A DNA stretch of 36,595 bases from Clostridia bacterium (GTDB lineage Bacteria > Bacillota > Clostridia > UBA1212 > UBA1255): assembly GCA_017560765.1 (NCBI GenBank), contig JAFZEI010000059.1, positions 1-36,595 of the forward strand, given 5' to 3'. The notes beneath the pieces were generated by a model. It was not told the origin of the DNA, ran no database searches, and worked only from the letters and a program-made list of their open reading frames with translations. The position numbers and the translations under genes are program-made. Within the stretch, counting starts at the first letter, position 1. Every line of letters starts with the position of its first letter. This document shows positions 10,026-21,148 of the stretch, piece by piece.

Positions 10026-12689
10026 ATGGAAATCAATAAAATTATGTGTCAACACATGCTTTGTGATGAGGCATCTTGCAAAGAAGTACCTTTTTGCATT
10101 GATTGTGAAAACCCTGTTTTTTCATTCAATGTAGAAGGAGAAGGATATAATGAGTATGTTAAGCAGTGGCGAGTGATAGTTTCCGCATCACGCGAGAAAA
10201 TTGAAGCGGGAGAGGGTGATATGTGGGATAGCGGCTTCGTAACGGGAGACGACATTCTTGATATCAAATATAATGGTAAAGCTTTCACTTCTAAAACAAC
10301 ATATTATGTGAAATTTTTTGCAATAGTTGATGAGAATCTTATCGAAAGTGAAATCGGTTTATTTACAACCGGTTTGTTTTACAGCTCTGATTGGCACACA
10401 GGATTTATTGGTATACCATTAGAAGCAACTCCTCAAATGGATTGTCCTGAAAAAGAAAAAATCGGATATGCTGCGCCTTATTTACGCAAAAGTTTTACAG
10501 TATCTAAACCAGTTGTTTCTGCTAAAGCATTTGCAACAGCGTACGGTGTATACGAGCTTTATATTAACGGCAAAAAAGATGAACATTATTCTATGGCGCC
10601 TGAATGGACAGATTATTCAAAGAGTGTTCAATATCAATATTATGATTTGACAGACAGTATTGTACAGGGCGAAAATGTTATCGGTGCAATCATTGGTGAT
10701 GGTTGGTATGCCGGAAATATTGCGGCTGTAGGCAGAAAGCAATACGGAGACGCACCCTTAGGCTTTATGTTGCACCTTTCTCTTACTTATGCAGATGGTA
10801 GCGAAGAACTTATTCTTACAAATGATACTTGGAGAGGTTCGTCAGGTCCGATTGTTTATACAGATAACCAAACGGGTGAGTATTATGATGCAAGACTTGA
10901 AAAAGAAGGCTGGTGCAGCGCTGGTTTTGATGACTCCGATTGGGTTAAAATTATAGGCGTTTATCCCCCTAAAACAATCGGTACTCGTCTCAAAGCTTCA
11001 ATAGGCCCCCAGGTTAAAGTTATGAAAACAATTAAACCTGAAAGTATTTGTGAAGATATTAACGGTAAATATATCGTTAATATGGGACAGAATATGGTTG
11101 GTGTGGCAGCAGTAAAATTAAAAGGAAAAGCCGGACAGAAAGTGACTTTCCGTTTTGGTGAAATGCTTAATCTTGACGGGACAATTTATTTGGAAAATCT
11201 TAGAAGCGCACTTCAAACTGACACATATATTATGAAAGGTGCAGATGAAGGAGAAGAATTCAGACCTCATTTTACTTTCCACGGTTTCCAATATATAGAA
11301 ATCAGTGGACTCGATTATATGCCTTCATTGGATGATATAACGGGTTTGGTAAAGTATTCGGCTTGCAGACAGACAGGTAGTGTTGAGACTTCAAATGCTA
11401 TGGTAAATAAGCTGTTTTCTAATGCTATGTGGGGACAAATCGGTAACTTTGTAGGTGTGCCGACAGACTGTCCTCAACGTGACGAGAGAATGGGCTGGAC
11501 AGGGGATGCACAAGTATTTTGTAAAACTGCTTGCTATAACCTTGATTGTTATGGTTTTTATGATAAATATGTTGAAGATATTCTTGAGTCTCAAAAGCCC
11601 AACGGCGGCGTAACAGATGTTGTGCCGAATGTTAAATGGCCTAATGGCTCTGACCTTGTAGGATATGGTCATGCAGCTTGGTCGGATGCTATGTTTATTG
11701 TACCTTGGACAGTTTATAACATGTACGGAGATACTGACATTTTAGCTAAAAATTACCAAGCAATGGAGAAGTTTTTCAAGTATCTTCTTGGTACTACTGA
11801 GGGCTTTTTAAGAGCTGATATCGGATACGGAGATTGGCTCAATATTGACGATTATACGCCTAAGAATGTTATAGCAACAGCATATTTTGCATATGCGGCA
11901 AGCATTATGGCAAATGTTTCTAATGTACTTGGTAAGCCTGAGCGCAAGGCATACTACGACGGAATGTTCGAGAATATTTCCGCTGCTTGGCGCAATGCTT
12001 TTATGAATGAAGAAGGCATAGTTAACGGTGATACTCAATGTTGTTATTTGTTGGCACTCAAGATGAATTTGTTAAAGCCGGAGCAGATTGAAACTGCTGT
12101 AGCTCATTTAATAAGAACAATTGAGCGAAAGAATTATCATCTCTCAACAGGTTTTGTCGGAGTTTCCTATTTGTTGCCGATATTGTGTGATTATGGTTAT
12201 TCTGATATTGCTTACAGGATTCTTCTTAATGAGACGTATCCTTCATGGGGATACTCTATTAAGAACGGTGCTACCACAATTTGGGAAAGATGGAATTCTT
12301 ACACCAAAGAAAACGGCTTCGGTAATGTTGCAATGAACTCATTTAATCACTATTCATTAGGCTCTGTTTCTGAATGGATGTACGCTTATATGGGTGGTAT
12401 TCGTCCTACCGCGCCGGGATTCAAGCGCTTTACGATTAAGCCTCACTTTACTAAACGTCTTGACAATGTAAATGTTAAATATGACAGTGCAAGCGGCTTG
12501 ATTTGTTCTGAATGGCACAGTACTCCTGACGGATATGAGCTTAATGTTAAAATACCTGCAAATACTACTGCTTGTATTGAAATCGATACAACAAAAGCAG
12601 CGGTGTTATGCGGCGGTAAGATAACGCAACACTATGATGGATATATTGTAAGTTCGGGAACTTACAGGTTCATATACAGAGGAGAATAA
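10026..12689 (+). CDS. Alpha-L-rhamnosidase, GH78
   Basis: An 887-residue glycoside hydrolase family 78 enzyme that releases terminal alpha-L-rhamnose from plant glycosides or pectic rhamnogalacturonan oligomers. The order of parts is typical: N-terminal beta domain, the Bac_rhamnosid_N region (about residues 155-320), concanavalin-like domain, (alpha/alpha)6 barrel and C-terminal beta domain. The acidic catalytic region DCPQRDERMGWTGD begins at D481, and the conserved TIWERW has its glutamate at E754. There is no signal peptide, so it acts in the cytoplasm on imported oligosaccharides. It has its own ribosome binding site (AGAGGGA) and follows the exporter by 23 bases; no rhamnose catabolic gene or sugar importer is nearby. 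Confidence 0.93.
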   Translation: MEINKIMCQHMLCDEASCKEVPFCIDCENPVFSFNVEGEGYNEYVKQWRVIVSASREKIEAGEGDMWDSGFVTGDDILDIKYNGKAFTSKTTYYVKFFAIVDENLIESEIGLFTTGLFYSSDWHTGFIGIPLEATPQMDCPEKEKIGYAAPYLRKSFTVSKPVVSAKAFATAYGVYELYINGKKDEHYSMAPEWTDYSKSVQYQYYDLTDSIVQGENVIGAIIGDGWYAGNIAAVGRKQYGDAPLGFMLHLSLTYADGSEELILTNDTWRGSSGPIVYTDNQTGEYYDARLEKEGWCSAGFDDSDWVKIIGVYPPKTIGTRLKASIGPQVKVMKTIKPESICEDINGKYIVNMGQNMVGVAAVKLKGKAGQKVTFRFGEMLNLDGTIYLENLRSALQTDTYIMKGADEGEEFRPHFTFHGFQYIEISGLDYMPSLDDITGLVKYSACRQTGSVETSNAMVNKLFSNAMWGQIGNFVGVPTDCPQRDERMGWTGDAQVFCKTACYNLDCYGFYDKYVEDILESQKPNGGVTDVVPNVKWPNGSDLVGYGHAAWSDAMFIVPWTVYNMYGDTDILAKNYQAMEKFFKYLLGTTEGFLRADIGYGDWLNIDDYTPKNVIATAYFAYAASIMANVSNVLGKPERKAYYDGMFENISAAWRNAFMNEEGIVNGDTQCCYLLALKMNLLKPEQIETAVAHLIRTIERKNYHLSTGFVGVSYLLPILCDYGYSDIAYRILLNETYPSWGYSIKNGATTIWERWNSYTKENGFGNVAMNSFNHYSLGSVSEWMYAYMGGIRPTAPGFKRFTIKPHFTKRLDNVNVKYDSASGLICSEWHSTPDGYELNVKIPANTTACIEIDTTKAAVLCGGKITQHYDGYIVSSGTYRFIYRGE

Positions 12690-14710: not shown

Positions 14711-14917
14711 ATGCACACACTGGAAACATCGATTATATTACCGGCAGTGCTGTTTTTTATTACAGTAATTGTTTGCGTAAGTTTAAAATATTCAGATATG
14801 GTATCGCAGCATGCAGATGAAATTGCAGCATCTGTTCCCGAAGAAAAAATTAGCCATACCGACGTTGTCAGAGGAGGCGTTGTGTTAAATGAGTTGTACG
14901 AGAAGTATTTGGGATAA
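14711..14917 (+). CDS. Small TadE-like membrane protein
   Basis: A 68-residue protein beginning MHTLETSIILPAVLFFITVIV. The spacing of the glutamate at residue 5 and the proline at residue 11 matches the E-(x5)-P register of TadE-like pseudopilins, but there is no leader peptide or cleavage glycine: translation starts where a mature pilin would. The rest is a short polar tail. The ATG at 14711 has a strong GGGGGTGAT site. The gene overlaps the next (DUF5702) by 29 bases. It probably acts in the membrane with the two following proteins; the function is unknown. Confidence 0.7.
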   Translation: MHTLETSIILPAVLFFITVIVCVSLKYSDMVSQHADEIAASVPEEKISHTDVVRGGVVLNELYEKYLG

Positions 14918-16790
14918 CAGAGGAAGTATAACAGTTGCAGCTGCAATTTTTTTGTCCTCAATAATTGTACTTAATACTGTTTTAATAGATTATGTCAGAA
15001 TGAAAACAAAAATCAGTAGCATACCTACAGAATTACAACTGGCTTGCAATTCTGTATTAGCATCATATGATGCTTTACTGGCAGATAAATATGGTTTGTA
15101 TGGCTATAATACAAGTGCTGATACGTCTGCTCACAGAAATTTTATGCGGTACTATCATGCGGCAGAAAGCTCAGTTGATTTTAAAGAGGCTTTTGTAGAA
15201 CCGAATGTTTTAAAGGAACAAATATGCGGAATAATGCACATTAAAACACCTACAAATATTATAGAGGCTGTGCTTCAAGCTTTTGATATAATTTCCGAGG
15301 CAGATAAATCTTGTGATGAGCACAGTGTTTGCGGCAATGCAGCGCAAAAACTTTCTGATATGCAAGAATTGAGGGATAAATTAAAACTTAAAGTGGAGGG
15401 ATATTATTCCGGTGACCCTGCTTGTGTTAATGGTTTTTCTCAGGGTGTTGTTTTGCAACTTGTAGAGAATATTACGAAAACAGAAAATCATTCAGATAAA
15501 GATACAGAAATAAAAATGCTTTTAAACCAAACAATTGCAGTTCACAAGCAATATCAGCAATACAACAATGAGGCTACAGCAATTTGCAAAGAATTGCAAA
15601 TAGGGCTGGCAGACATAGAAAGTATGCTCTCTGATGTGCTGATTGATGATTCTTCTCCGGAAACGCTTAACAATGCAAATTCAATAAAGAAACAAGCAAC
15701 TACTCTGTTAAATAATTCTGCTTTGACATCTTTACAACACAATGCCGAAGTGTTTAAAGAGAGAATTGATTTACTTGAAAGAATTCATGACAAACAGCAG
15801 ATAAACATAAATCAAATTAAAAACATACTTCAAAAAGGATTTGTTCACACAAATATTAGAATAAACACGTTATATTCCGGAGATGGCGGCGGATTTTCAG
15901 ATCAAAGAGAAGCGCTGTCCGGAGAAATAAAAAACAAGGTGGCAAATTCTGTTTTTTATAATGACAAATATGAGATTCCCCCTATGGAATACGCTATGCT
16001 TCCATCTGTAAAGGCTGCTGCCGTTTCAGAAATGGCTTCGGAATTAATTGATTCCGGGGCAAAGGATTTTATGGACAAATTTTCCTCTTTTAACAGTATG
16101 TTTTCTTATTGGGATAATGTAAGCTTTAATGAAGTAATAAAAGATACTGCAAGTACAATTCTTACGGATGACTATATTTTATCGTATATGACAACAAGAT
16201 TGTCAGGTGTGTCTGATGATAAATTGAATAATGAAATAGAATATATTCTTTGCGGTAATGCTTCTTGTGATGCAAATAATGACAAGGTTGAGCAAAAAAT
16301 TGTGGCATTGAGATTTATATTAAATTTCACTAACATAATGAGGAACAAAGAGAAGGTTACTATAGCGGAAGCTATGGCAGCAGCTATCGCTGCAGTTGTG
16401 AGCCGAGGGGCCGGTGTTACATTATACAAATATATTATTATTTCTGCTTGGGCTTTGATAGATTCTTATGTTGATGCAGAAAAGTTAATTCAAGGGGAAA
16501 GTGTACCGCTTTTAGAAATAGAAGGAGGGGACAAAGTTAACGAGATACAAGACTATGATTTTTATTTACGGATTTTATTGTTGTTTACCGATACAGAAAC
16601 AAAGCTCCTTAGAATATGCGATATAATAGAAATTAATATGAAGGAAATTACCGGTGAAAATTATAAGCTTTCTTCTGTATACAATTCTGTCTGTGTAAAA
16701 GCAGTAACCGAGATTTCGTATATTTCTCCTGTATTATTAGGAATAGAAGAGAAATACAGAAGGGAGGATTATTGTGAGGTTTCATACTAA
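14889..16790 (+). CDS. DUF5702-like, Tad-associated surface protein
   Basis: A 633-residue protein with a short N-terminal leader, NRGSITVAAAIFLSSIIVL (membrane segment about residues 13-33), then LIDYVRMK...LQLACNSVLASYDALLADKYGLYG, which matches the DUF5702 family of clostridial Tad-linked proteins. The large remainder is helical with probable coiled coils (about residues 210-330) and a second hydrophobic region near 495-530. The leader has the G-S cleavage-like site but Ala rather than Glu at +5. GGAGG lies 11 bases before the ATG. It overlaps both neighbours (29 and 17 bases), so the three genes are translated as a unit. The exact role is unknown. Confidence 0.78.
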   Translation: MSCTRSIWDNRGSITVAAAIFLSSIIVLNTVLIDYVRMKTKISSIPTELQLACNSVLASYDALLADKYGLYGYNTSADTSAHRNFMRYYHAAESSVDFKEAFVEPNVLKEQICGIMHIKTPTNIIEAVLQAFDIISEADKSCDEHSVCGNAAQKLSDMQELRDKLKLKVEGYYSGDPACVNGFSQGVVLQLVENITKTENHSDKDTEIKMLLNQTIAVHKQYQQYNNEATAICKELQIGLADIESMLSDVLIDDSSPETLNNANSIKKQATTLLNNSALTSLQHNAEVFKERIDLLERIHDKQQININQIKNILQKGFVHTNIRINTLYSGDGGGFSDQREALSGEIKNKVANSVFYNDKYEIPPMEYAMLPSVKAAAVSEMASELIDSGAKDFMDKFSSFNSMFSYWDNVSFNEVIKDTASTILTDDYILSYMTTRLSGVSDDKLNNEIEYILCGNASCDANNDKVEQKIVALRFILNFTNIMRNKEKVTIAEAMAAAIAAVVSRGAGVTLYKYIIISAWALIDSYVDAEKLIQGESVPLLEIEGGDKVNEIQDYDFYLRILLLFTDTETKLLRICDIIEINMKEITGENYKLSSVYNSVCVKAVTEISYISPVLLGIEEKYRREDYCEVSY

Positions 16791-17766
16791 TAACTCAGAA
16801 AGAGGCTCTGTGTCTATAGAAGCAGCTGTAATTATGCCTGCGTTTTTAGGAGTACTCTTAGTGTTTGTATCTGTTATACAAATTATTTCGGCAGAAAATA
16901 TACTTCGCATGTCGGCTTTGAAAACAGCAGATAAAATGTGTAAATGGGCTCCAATATATAAAAACCTTGCAGCTGACAATTTGCAAAATGAAATAGTAAA
17001 AAAAATAGGAGGAGAGTTAAGTGAAGCATTAAGCGGAGAAGAGGGTGAGCTTATATCAGAAATATTGCAATTGAGAAAAGTGACTGAGTATTCATTCAAT
17101 TATATTTATGGTTTTACATCGCAGAAAATATGTGAAAGCTATATCAATAATGACAAATTGGTAAGGAATAAAGTTGTTGATATAAGTAATTTGAATTTAT
17201 ATAAAAGTACCTTTTTTAGCAACGATACAAATAATATATCATTAAAGGCTGTTTGTGATGTTAAAACATATCTGCCATTTAAAGCAAAAATTGCTGTTGA
17301 TATAGATTGCGCATCGTGGGGAAAAGGTATTATGCCACATGTTTCGGTGGATATACCGGATGAAAAAGTTTCTGACAGTATTTGGCAAAAAGATAATCTT
17401 ACAAGAGGCCGGATAATACGACAAATGTACGGTAGTAATTTGCCTGAAAACTTTCCTGTAATAGCATCTTTTGAATATGGCACAGCAACAATGATTAAAA
17501 GCTTAAATCATACTGCAAAAACATATCAGGATTCGTTTACTTTTGAAAAATCAATTAAAGAGATGATAGATGCTGTTGCAAATTTTGAAGGAAGTAGTAT
17601 GGGTGGTATTACAGTAAATAAAAAAGATATATTAATTAAAAAAATTATATTGGTTTTACCTGAAAATGATTTTTCTTTTTTGCAACAAAATACACTGGAG
17701 TATTTAATGAGATATTCTGCAACAAAATTGGTTGTGTTGGACTTGCAGAGATATCAAAAAGTATGA
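16774..17766 (+). CDS. TadE-like pseudopilin protein
   Basis: A 330-residue protein with a prepilin-like N-terminus: RGSVSIEAAVIMPAFLGVL, with Gly at residue 11 before the presumed cut and Glu at +5 (E16), followed by a hydrophobic helix and a long extracytoplasmic domain. This is the TadE/TadF organisation. The start is GTG at 16774, preceded by GGGAGG. It overlaps the DUF5702 gene by 17 bases. No Tad ATPase (TadA/CpaF), TadB/C platform or prepilin peptidase is in the window, so processing and assembly must rely on distant genes or not occur. Confidence 0.78.
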   Translation: MRFHTNNSERGSVSIEAAVIMPAFLGVLLVFVSVIQIISAENILRMSALKTADKMCKWAPIYKNLAADNLQNEIVKKIGGELSEALSGEEGELISEILQLRKVTEYSFNYIYGFTSQKICESYINNDKLVRNKVVDISNLNLYKSTFFSNDTNNISLKAVCDVKTYLPFKAKIAVDIDCASWGKGIMPHVSVDIPDEKVSDSIWQKDNLTRGRIIRQMYGSNLPENFPVIASFEYGTATMIKSLNHTAKTYQDSFTFEKSIKEMIDAVANFEGSSMGGITVNKKDILIKKIILVLPENDFSFLQQNTLEYLMRYSATKLVVLDLQRYQKV

Positions 17767-19071: not shown

Positions 19072-19100
19072 TTGCAAAAATAGGCGAGATGACGTATAAT
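19072..19100 (+). promoter_or_regulatory. Promoter of the 6PGDH-like gene
   Basis: TTGCAA (19072-19077) and TATAAT (19095-19100) with a 17-base spacer directly follow the amidohydrolase stop codon. The start point would be near 19107, giving a leader of about 55 bases. So the downstream gene has its own transcription. Confidence 0.8.
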
Positions 19101-19161: not shown

Positions 19162-20631
19162 TTGAATAAATATGAGGTAGGAGTTATTACAGACGGGAAA
19201 CTGGGGTGCAATTTTGCTCGTCGATTAAAAGAAAACGGGTATTCTTGTGTCTTATACAACACAGGTCTTGAAAAATTATCAAGAACTGATATAAATTGTT
19301 ATGTTTCAGAAATGCATGAACAAGAAATACTTACGTCAACTTCTGCTGAAGTGATGATTCAATTGTTAGAGAAACCGAGAAGAATATTTATAGTCAGCAG
19401 AAGTAGCTCGTATGCAAAACAAATTCTTGATGAATTATATGACATTGTTGAGCCACAAGATATTATTGTTGATACTTGTGATGCAGATTATAAAGTGACT
19501 AAAGACCGATGCAGAGAGTTTCAACAAAAGAAAAAAGTATCTTATTTAGGAGTTGGATTTTCAGGTGAGGCGGCAGAACTCCTTAATGGTACATCGTTGA
19601 TGGTCGGAGGCTCCAGAGATGCATATATAGAAATATACGATATTTTAAGAGATATTTCTTCTAAGTTTGGCGGATATGAATGCTGCGCATATATGGGACC
19701 TGATGGGGCAGGCCAATATACTAAGATGATACATAATGGTATCGAATATGGTATGCTGCAATCAATATGTGAGAGTATATCTGTTCTGGAACGTATTGCT
19801 GATTTAGATAGCAGTATTGTTTTTGAAACATTAGGTGAATGGCTGATAGGTGAGAATGAAAGCTTTTTAATTCAAGCTGTATATGAAATATTAAGCAAAA
19901 AGGATTCGGAAACAGATAATTTATTTAAAAATATAGTTTCCGATAAAGTTGGTTACAGCCAGTCTGTTTTGTGGCTATGCAACAGTGCGGCTGAACTTGC
20001 AGAACCTGTTCCGTCTATATATGCGGCGCTTAATAACAGATTTATGACAGGATTAAAAAAGGAAAGAACGTCATATTCTGATTTGCTTAAACGTGAAAAA
20101 AACAATATTTTACTAAAACAAAGAGAAGTAAAAAGTTTTGTCGCAGATGTTCGAAATGCATTATATCTCACTCTGATATGTGTTCATGCACAGGCATTTA
20201 ATTTGTTGAAGCATAGGTCGCTTGCCGAAATTTGGGGAACATCTTCACTTGATGTTGCTATTACTTTTCAAGGCGGAGCATTTATTCGTTCAAGGCTTCT
20301 TACAAGGATTATAGATGCATATAAAAATAAACCGGATTTAAAAAATTTATTGGAAGACTCATATTTTGTATCGGCGGTCAGAAGATATCTGCCTTCATTA
20401 CAGAATGTTGTTTGTAAAGCGGCAGAGGGTGGAGTTTCAATACCTATTATGTCTGCTTCGCTTTCGTATCTTTATGATTTCTCAGAGGAAACAATGAACA
20501 CAAGTATTATTGAACTTGCAAGAGATTATATACAAGGAACAGGTTTTGAACTAAAAAGCTCACCAAATACTAAATGTTATGCAAATTGGAAAAAAACTGA
20601 TAATTTGGTTTTTTATAAGGAAAGAAAATAA
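19162..20631 (+). CDS. Divergent 6-phosphogluconate dehydrogenase homologue
   Basis: A 489-residue protein with the full 6PGDH fold (true enzymes oxidise 6-phosphogluconate to ribulose 5-phosphate with NADP). The central block KMIHNGIEYG (K188, H191, N192, E195, Y196) and S134-G135 are kept, as is R454. By alignment to the sheep enzyme (from memory), several key positions differ: the NADP-phosphate arginine (YNRT) is YNTG (T34), DGGNS is DTCDA (D107), the GTGKWT lysine and threonine are L270 and L272, the WRGG arginine is Q370, and the C-terminal RDYFGAH histidine is T460. The start is TTG at 19162 with GGAG upstream. It may be a pseudoenzyme or act on another substrate. Confidence 0.85.
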   Translation: MNKYEVGVITDGKLGCNFARRLKENGYSCVLYNTGLEKLSRTDINCYVSEMHEQEILTSTSAEVMIQLLEKPRRIFIVSRSSSYAKQILDELYDIVEPQDIIVDTCDADYKVTKDRCREFQQKKKVSYLGVGFSGEAAELLNGTSLMVGGSRDAYIEIYDILRDISSKFGGYECCAYMGPDGAGQYTKMIHNGIEYGMLQSICESISVLERIADLDSSIVFETLGEWLIGENESFLIQAVYEILSKKDSETDNLFKNIVSDKVGYSQSVLWLCNSAAELAEPVPSIYAALNNRFMTGLKKERTSYSDLLKREKNNILLKQREVKSFVADVRNALYLTLICVHAQAFNLLKHRSLAEIWGTSSLDVAITFQGGAFIRSRLLTRIIDAYKNKPDLKNLLEDSYFVSAVRRYLPSLQNVVCKAAEGGVSIPIMSASLSYLYDFSEETMNTSIIELARDYIQGTGFELKSSPNTKCYANWKKTDNLVFYKERK

Positions 20632-20638
20632 AAAATTA

Positions 20639-21148
20639 TTAGTTATGCATATTATGTTCTTCTTTATATTGCTTTTCGTATGCGATATTTTTTCTGATTG
20701 CAATTATAGTTTTGCCTGTTATAAATGTAAGTGTAAGATAAATGAGAGCTACAATATATTTTGCTTGTATTCCGCTGTATCTTCCAAGGAAAACAGCTAA
20801 AGGCTCTAAAGGAATAGTCCAAGCGTGAAAGATCATATAGAAAAAATTCTTCACATCCATGTTAAATATGAAGGTAAAGAAATATAAGGCATAAGATAAA
20901 AAACCTATCATTTGATAGAAAAAAAGACCTTTTGAGAGTATTGAATACCGTTTGAACTGCATAAAAATACAAAAGACGATATATAACAAGCAAGCGAAAA
21001 CGGAAATCATAACTTCTGTAAAAGTGAGCTTGAGCATTTCAAAAGTAAATGTATGTAAACCAAAAGGAAAAATAACGAGTATATTCAGAAAGGATAATAT
21101 TGTTGCTATAATCAATGCAGATTTATTTTTTTGAATAAATTTGTTCAT
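20639..21148 (-). CDS. Hypothetical four-helix membrane protein
   Basis: A 169-residue protein I do not recognise. It has four or five hydrophobic segments (about residues 11-31, 40-65, 72-95, 105-120 and 130-152) and a basic C-terminus (AIRKNIAYEKQYKEEHNMHN), consistent with an integral membrane protein. The ATG at 21148 has AGGAG 8 bases upstream. It is convergent with the 6PGDH-like gene (7-base gap) and divergent from the DUF368 gene. It is real by start signal and hydrophobic pattern, but no function can be given. Confidence 0.65.
   Translation of the reverse strand: MNKFIQKNKSALIIATILSFLNILVIFPFGLHTFTFEMLKLTFTEVMISVFACLLYIVFCIFMQFKRYSILSKGLFFYQMIGFLSYALYFFTFIFNMDVKNFFYMIFHAWTIPLEPLAVFLGRYSGIQAKYIVALIYLTLTFITGKTIIAIRKNIAYEKQYKEEHNMHN

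Follow-up and report, generated by a model that had tools for sequence, protein, structure and literature searches.

A divergent 6-phosphogluconate dehydrogenase homologue conserved across an order of Clostridia is probably a repurposed pseudoenzyme

An order-specific clade of probable 6PGDH pseudoenzymes

The window, by which we mean the whole 36,595-nucleotide stretch of Clostridia bacterium DNA that was analysed, carries a gene for a divergent homologue of 6-phosphogluconate dehydrogenase (6PGDH, or Gnd) that is probably a neofunctionalised pseudoenzyme. Judged from the sequences of the protein and its relatives, it belongs to a vertically inherited clade, specific to one order of gut-type Clostridia, that would have descended from long-chain 6PGDH, lost 6PGDH chemistry and likely taken on the role of a scaffold or sensor. 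The dimeric helical scaffold of 6PGDH would have been kept, and NADP-dependent oxidative decarboxylation would have been lost. An earlier note on this DNA had suggested that the protein is a pseudoenzyme, acts as a regulator or turns over a different substrate, and this range of possibilities is supported both by the conservation of the clade and by the lack of a second gnd gene in the window genome.

Homology calls that label such genes as 6PGDH would wrongly credit bacteria that lack zwf with part of the oxidative pentose phosphate pathway. Furthermore, the clade may serve as a natural experiment, in which a dimer from central metabolism is stripped first of its cofactor turn and afterwards, separately in each lineage, of its catalytic residues, all under selection for something else.

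Gene, reading frame and family match

19162..20631, + strand: pseudo-6PGDH (divergent Gnd-like protein, 489 aa), TTG start

The open reading frame of this gene, referred to below as pseudo-Gnd, is intact, and its TTG-AAT-AAA start is common to two relatives. Both domains of the family are matched end to end, NAD_binding_2 (PF03446, 2.6e-18) as well as the C-terminal 6PGD domain (PF00393, 2e-66), and a search of the PDB matched solved 6PGDHs over residues 3-477 of the protein. The intact frame and full-length fold described in the earlier note are thus upheld. The protein nevertheless falls short of the curated equivalog cut-offs for gnd, reaching 347.9 bits against the 426.7 required for TIGR00873 and 352.7 bits against the 413 required for PRK09287. 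All 10 relatives tested also lie below both cut-offs (296-375 bits and 303-387 bits, respectively); a canonical Gnd from the same genus, the fused copy described below, scores 724 bits to TIGR00873.

The strong promoter that the gene had been credited with is unsupported, because promoter-like matches are as common in shuffled sequences (18.2) as in the real one (18). A single 10/12 match, TTGCAA-17-TATAAT, is located upstream of pseudo-Gnd at 19072-19100. In several relatives the gene lies close behind its upstream neighbour or overlaps it, with a gap of 29 bp in G002, for example, and an overlap of 4 bp in G004, where the stop of an aminotransferase gene runs over the pseudo-Gnd start. The promoter argument fails, yet it is not needed, since synteny and dN/dS take its place.

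Ligand-binding and catalytic residues of the window protein

Residue roles were taken from a review of crystal structures (PMC8900737) and mapped through an alignment with the sheep 6PGDH sequence. In 6PGDH, formation of the pyrophosphate turn requires only the first glycine, and the NADP site includes Asn32-Arg33-Thr34, of which Arg33 binds the 2'-phosphate (PMC8900737). K260 is the phosphate-site lysine, and the active site is made up jointly by the subunits, with His452 as the tail residue that completes the active site of the neighbouring subunit (PMC8900737). The corresponding features of the window are as follows.

19189..19206, + strand: degenerate dinucleotide-binding turn T10-D-G-K-L-G15, compared with G-x-A-x-M-G (alignment)
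19261..19263, + strand: T34 in place of the NADP 2'-phosphate-binding Arg33 (alignment, PMC8900737)
19477..19482, + strand: C106-D107 in place of G101-N102 of the DGGN motif (alignment)
19723..19746, + strand: K188 to E195 (KMIHNGIE), catalytic segment retained in the window species (alignment)
19957..19959, + strand: S266 in place of the phosphate-site Lys260 (alignment, PMC8900737)
20539..20541, + strand: T460 in place of His452 (alignment, PMC8900737)

On the coenzyme side, the protein shows G9 changed to T10, M13 to L14, R33 to T34, T34 to G35, N102 to D107 and E131 to A137, such that the NADP determinants now read T10 at the turn and N33-T34-G35 at the 2'-phosphate site. On the substrate side, G130 is replaced by E136, K260 by S266 and H452 by T460, and the 6-phosphogluconate residues S134, G135, R293 (R287) and R454 (R446) are kept. 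The general base Lys183 and the general acid Glu190 persist as K188 and E195, along with H191, N192 and Y196.

Some of these substitutions had already been recognized. The alignment agrees that T34, D107 and T460 replace R33, N102 and H452, and the KMIHNGIEYG core is indeed intact, with K183, H186, N187 and E190 kept as K188, H191, N192 and E195. The changes at L270, L272 and Q370 do affect conserved residues, but none of those positions is a documented ligand contact. Moreover, the phosphate-site lysine had been placed at L270, whereas K260 is the first lysine of KGTGKWT and aligns with S266. Several changes had not been listed before, namely T10 (at the first glycine of GxAxxG), L14 for M13, E136 for G130, A137 for E131 and the clade-specific C106. 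Misalignment can be set aside as the source of these substitutions, since the motifs align over 84 sequences in several independent alignments. A structure prediction made from two sequences only reached a pLDDT of 40 and a pTM of 0.33.

An order-wide clade under purifying selection

Searches covered 31 genomes of the order and a class sample of 391 genomes. Among the 31, we found 20 divergent homologues (DIV) in 20 genomes from four families of a single GTDB order. In a maximum-likelihood tree, all 20 fall on one side of a branch with support 100/100, and the canonical Gnd copies from the window's family are placed apart from them, among other Clostridia. The class sample yielded the divergent clade in this order only, and the canonical motifs are kept in every one of the 58 sequences retrieved from genomes of the class that lie outside this order. 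A contig scan added just one further copy, apparently from the same genome as G002. The substitutions are a property of a monophyletic, order-wide group, as the earlier note had proposed to check.

The first glycine of GxAxxG (Gly9) is present in 0/20 DIV sequences and in 64/64 canonical ones, a contrast beyond chance, and Lys260 and, among the residues listed, Met13 are likewise absent from all 20. His452 is gone in at least 19 of the 20. As read from the alignment, no member retains an unaltered Rossmann pyrophosphate turn or NADP 2'-phosphate site. At the GN of DGGN, cysteine (19/20) and aspartate (17/20) have taken over, and neither residue occurs there in any of the 64 canonical sequences; by this measure the Cys-Asp pair is a new, clade-specific constraint. 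The T-D-x-x-x-G turn, a five-residue insertion after beta-2 and the Cys-Asp pair would together form a remodelled nucleotide pocket that might act as a ligand or partner site.

Among the catalytic residues, Lys183 is kept in 18/20 sequences, the two changes to glutamine both being in members of family f5, and Glu190 is kept in 15/20, with alanine in genus g2 and tyrosine in family f4. His186 survives in 11/20 (replaced by Val, Ile, Phe, Cys or Thr), Asn187 in 10/20, Ser128 in 9/20 and R287 in 16/20. On this sequence evidence, the 6-phosphogluconate and catalytic residues have been eroded lineage by lineage. Columns that are invariant in canonical enzymes were lost at 9 of 18 active-site positions compared with 48 of 107 others (Fisher p = 0.80). 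A preferential loss of active-site residues is unsupported by these rates, and because loss is as frequent in the active site as at the other conserved positions, the active site has no special protection.

Pairwise dN/dS values lie at about 0.06-0.13, and several of the pairs have a dS close to saturation. These values, the 20 intact frames and the conserved locus bear out the earlier judgment that the gene is not simply decaying.

Genome content and the source of 6-phosphogluconate

The window genome (2.19 Mb in 132 contigs, 95.8% complete) holds no second gnd, canonical or otherwise, and pseudo-Gnd is its sole gnd homologue. More broadly, no canonical gnd was detected in 16 of the 20 variant-bearing genomes. 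No zwf gene was found in 16 genomes of the family by a model that was positive in 9 control genomes, and no gluconokinase scored over the cut-off in any of the 31 order genomes. IlvD/Edd is absent from the window genome, judged by a model that was positive in all 14 control genomes, and no hexonate epimerase there scores over the cut-off. Since no known route to 6-phosphogluconate, whether zwf, gluconokinase or an equivalent, was found in the window genome, it is not obvious what a housekeeping 6PGDH would act on, although an unknown kinase is conceivable. As a separate matter, the missing IlvD/Edd in a genome that is 95.8% complete suggests either that the bacterium is auxotrophic for branched-chain amino acids or that a contig is missing.

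Canonical or canonical-like copies do occur in the window's family, as five sequences (L015-L019) and a fragment in G013. Three genomes (G001, G009 and G012) carry both the variant and a canonical gnd, and G013 carries the variant together with the canonical fragment at a contig end. The canonical locus is unrelated to that of pseudo-Gnd and holds genes for an SDR, a PfkB kinase and a putative hexonate epimerase that is nickel-dependent, in various combinations. The canonical Gnd of one species (L017, at L044:9143-11845, contig G001:C3) is fused to the putative hexonate epimerase (NF052594) in a single 900-aa open reading frame. In G010 and G011 the putative epimerase is an unfused neighbour, accompanied in both by an SDR and in G011 by a PfkB kinase as well. 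This fusion and these neighbours suggest a route from hexonates to 6-phosphogluconate in bacteria that lack zwf. Because strong epimerase matches, some of them split over contigs, are confined to the six genomes with canonical gnd sequence, the canonical copies can be explained as part of a hexonate pathway that is separate from the DIV gene.

The pseudo-Gnd locus

The order of the DIV locus is a DUF5702 protein gene, a TadE-like protein gene, variable salvage genes, pseudo-Gnd and a convergent gene for a small membrane protein. In the window, the neighbours are:

14889..16790, + strand: DUF5702 (TadG-like) protein, overlapping the TadE-like gene
16774..17766, + strand: TadE-like protein with a single N-terminal TM segment and a conserved C-terminal domain matching PF21111
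17791..19071, + strand: amidohydrolase of the 5'-deoxyadenosine/MTA/SAH deaminase type, directly upstream of pseudo-Gnd
20639..21148, - strand: convergent membrane protein, 169 aa, with at least 3 predicted TM segments and no Pfam or NCBIfam family

The membrane protein gene adjoins pseudo-Gnd in all 20 clade genomes. The TadE-like gene is also present in all 20, beside the pseudo-Gnd locus in 19, with the contig ending in the other; 18 loci have the DUF5702 gene alongside, and the remaining two contigs stop short of it. The PF21111 family matched by the TadE-like C-terminal domain is named 'CDI toxin restriction endonuclease-like', and the domain may have a nuclease fold. Neither pseudo-Gnd nor the membrane protein nor the TadE-like gene occurs in G010 or G011, two genomes of the window's family in which the three are thus missing together. 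The association is not exclusive, as the TadE-like gene occurs without pseudo-Gnd in G016 and four genomes of genus g11, and the membrane protein does so in six g11 genomes, directly behind an epimerase-like gene. Because of these cases, the synteny may reflect conservation of the locus rather than physical partnership.

The salvage genes are far less constant. They are drawn from a purine nucleoside phosphorylase, a 5'-deoxyadenosine/SAH-type deaminase, a class IV aminotransferase, a TIM-barrel epimerase-like protein and an AMP-binding protein. The deaminase-type amidohydrolase is found in 8/20 clade loci, and the loci of family f5 and of G019 have none of the set. An obligate partnership with the TIM-barrel epimerase is ruled out, as six genomes with pseudo-Gnd (G000, the window genome, and G002, G004, G005, G006 and G019) lack its gene. 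Homologues of the epimerase-like protein also lie inside reading frames of 845-875 aa, apparent fusions, in G016:C39, G020:C7, G022:C5 and G023:C11. Family f5 has a fusion of phosphoglycerate kinase and triosephosphate isomerase beside the pseudo-Gnd locus (L074:4998-6935 and L075:10863-12824). Elsewhere in the window, at 10026-12689, there is an alpha-L-rhamnosidase gene (GH78-type), hinting at a lifestyle of plant-polysaccharide degradation.

Weighing the possible functions

The losses seen throughout the clade, coupled with the lack of a second gnd, zwf, gluconokinase and Edd in the window genome, make canonical 6PGDH function very unlikely for the window protein. A 6PGDH that is unusual yet still works, perhaps with NAD or at a low rate, would fit the full-length homology, the intact KxxHNxxE segment and the retention of R287 and R446, but it would have to operate without the first glycine of the turn, Met13, Glu131, Gly130, Asn102, Lys260 and His452, with scores below the curated gnd cut-offs and with no source of 6-phosphogluconate in the genome (zwf, gluconokinase or a hexonate epimerase over the cut-off); we consider it highly improbable. 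Even less credence can be given to a regulatory subunit that forms heterodimers or competes with canonical 6PGDH in the same cell. An active site shared between subunits (PMC8900737) could let an inactive partner modulate an active one, and three genomes do have both proteins, with a fourth carrying the canonical fragment. However, the 16 genomes in which only the variant was detected, the window's own included, refute this as a general answer, so that it could hold only where both occur, and the canonical copies reside in an unrelated locus with the putative hexonate epimerase, SDR and PfkB kinase genes. That the gene is in early decay and its substitutions are meaningless is scarcely tenable: the clade is fast-evolving and has long internal branches in the tree, but purifying selection and retention of intact frames across four families of the order, in a conserved locus and with newly conserved residues, refute a pseudogene.

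A more serious contender, though still an unlikely one, is an active enzyme whose substrate and cofactor have changed and in which Lys188 and Glu195 would act on a product of nucleoside or methionine salvage. Consistent with this are the deaminase, aminotransferase IV, epimerase-like TIM-barrel and AMP-binding genes upstream in G001 and G018, the purine nucleoside phosphorylase genes in the operons of G018 and G020, and the 4-bp overlap with the aminotransferase gene in G004. Retention of Lys183 and Glu190 in most members and the strong conservation of the new Cys-Asp pair point the same way. Against it, no salvage gene is constant, no common set of catalytic residues runs through the clade, and no member retains the first glycine of the dinucleotide turn. 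An enzyme for another substrate is possible above all in the window's genus, in which the catalytic quartet is largely intact. Likewise, the window protein itself could retain some catalysis or have another catalytic role, because its quartet is intact and because K183, E190 and R287 each persist in at least 15 of the 20 clade members.

We favor the non-catalytic option because the catalytic residues have been lost differently in different lineages, and loss of all catalysis is likely. Pseudo-Gnd would most likely serve, without catalysis, as a dimeric scaffold or as a sensor of a ligand and might act with the convergent membrane protein and the DUF5702 and TadE-like surface proteins, although a role alongside these neighbours is a guess guided by synteny. 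It is tempting to speculate further, with more doubt than confidence, that the 6PGDH fold was repurposed before the four families diverged to become a non-metabolic ligand sensor or scaffold of a surface-protein locus comprising DUF5702, TadE-like and membrane proteins, which would make the clade a previously undescribed family of 6PGDH pseudoenzymes working outside central metabolism.

Comparison with known systems

The open literature that was searched yielded no account of a 6PGDH pseudoenzyme. The closest known relative is long-chain Gnd (TIGR00873; PDB 2w8z, 1pgp and 2iyo), with which the window protein shares homology over both domains and the Lys/His/Asn/Glu motif. It differs from long-chain Gnd in lacking the dinucleotide-turn glycine and the NRT 2'-phosphate motif, in the changes at N102, K260 and H452, in scoring below the curated cut-offs and in residing in a genome with no oxidative pentose phosphate pathway. 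The canonical Gnd proteins of the same family (L015-L019) share its fold family and host lineage, but their motifs are intact, their locus is different and the tree places them apart from the variant clade. Other members of the beta-hydroxyacid dehydrogenase superfamily, such as HIBADH, tartronate semialdehyde reductase and the NAD-dependent short 6PGDH, share the Rossmann domain and give weak matches. These enzymes generally keep the glycine-rich turn and the catalytic lysine, whereas in the DIV clade the first glycine is gone everywhere and the lysine is gone in two members.
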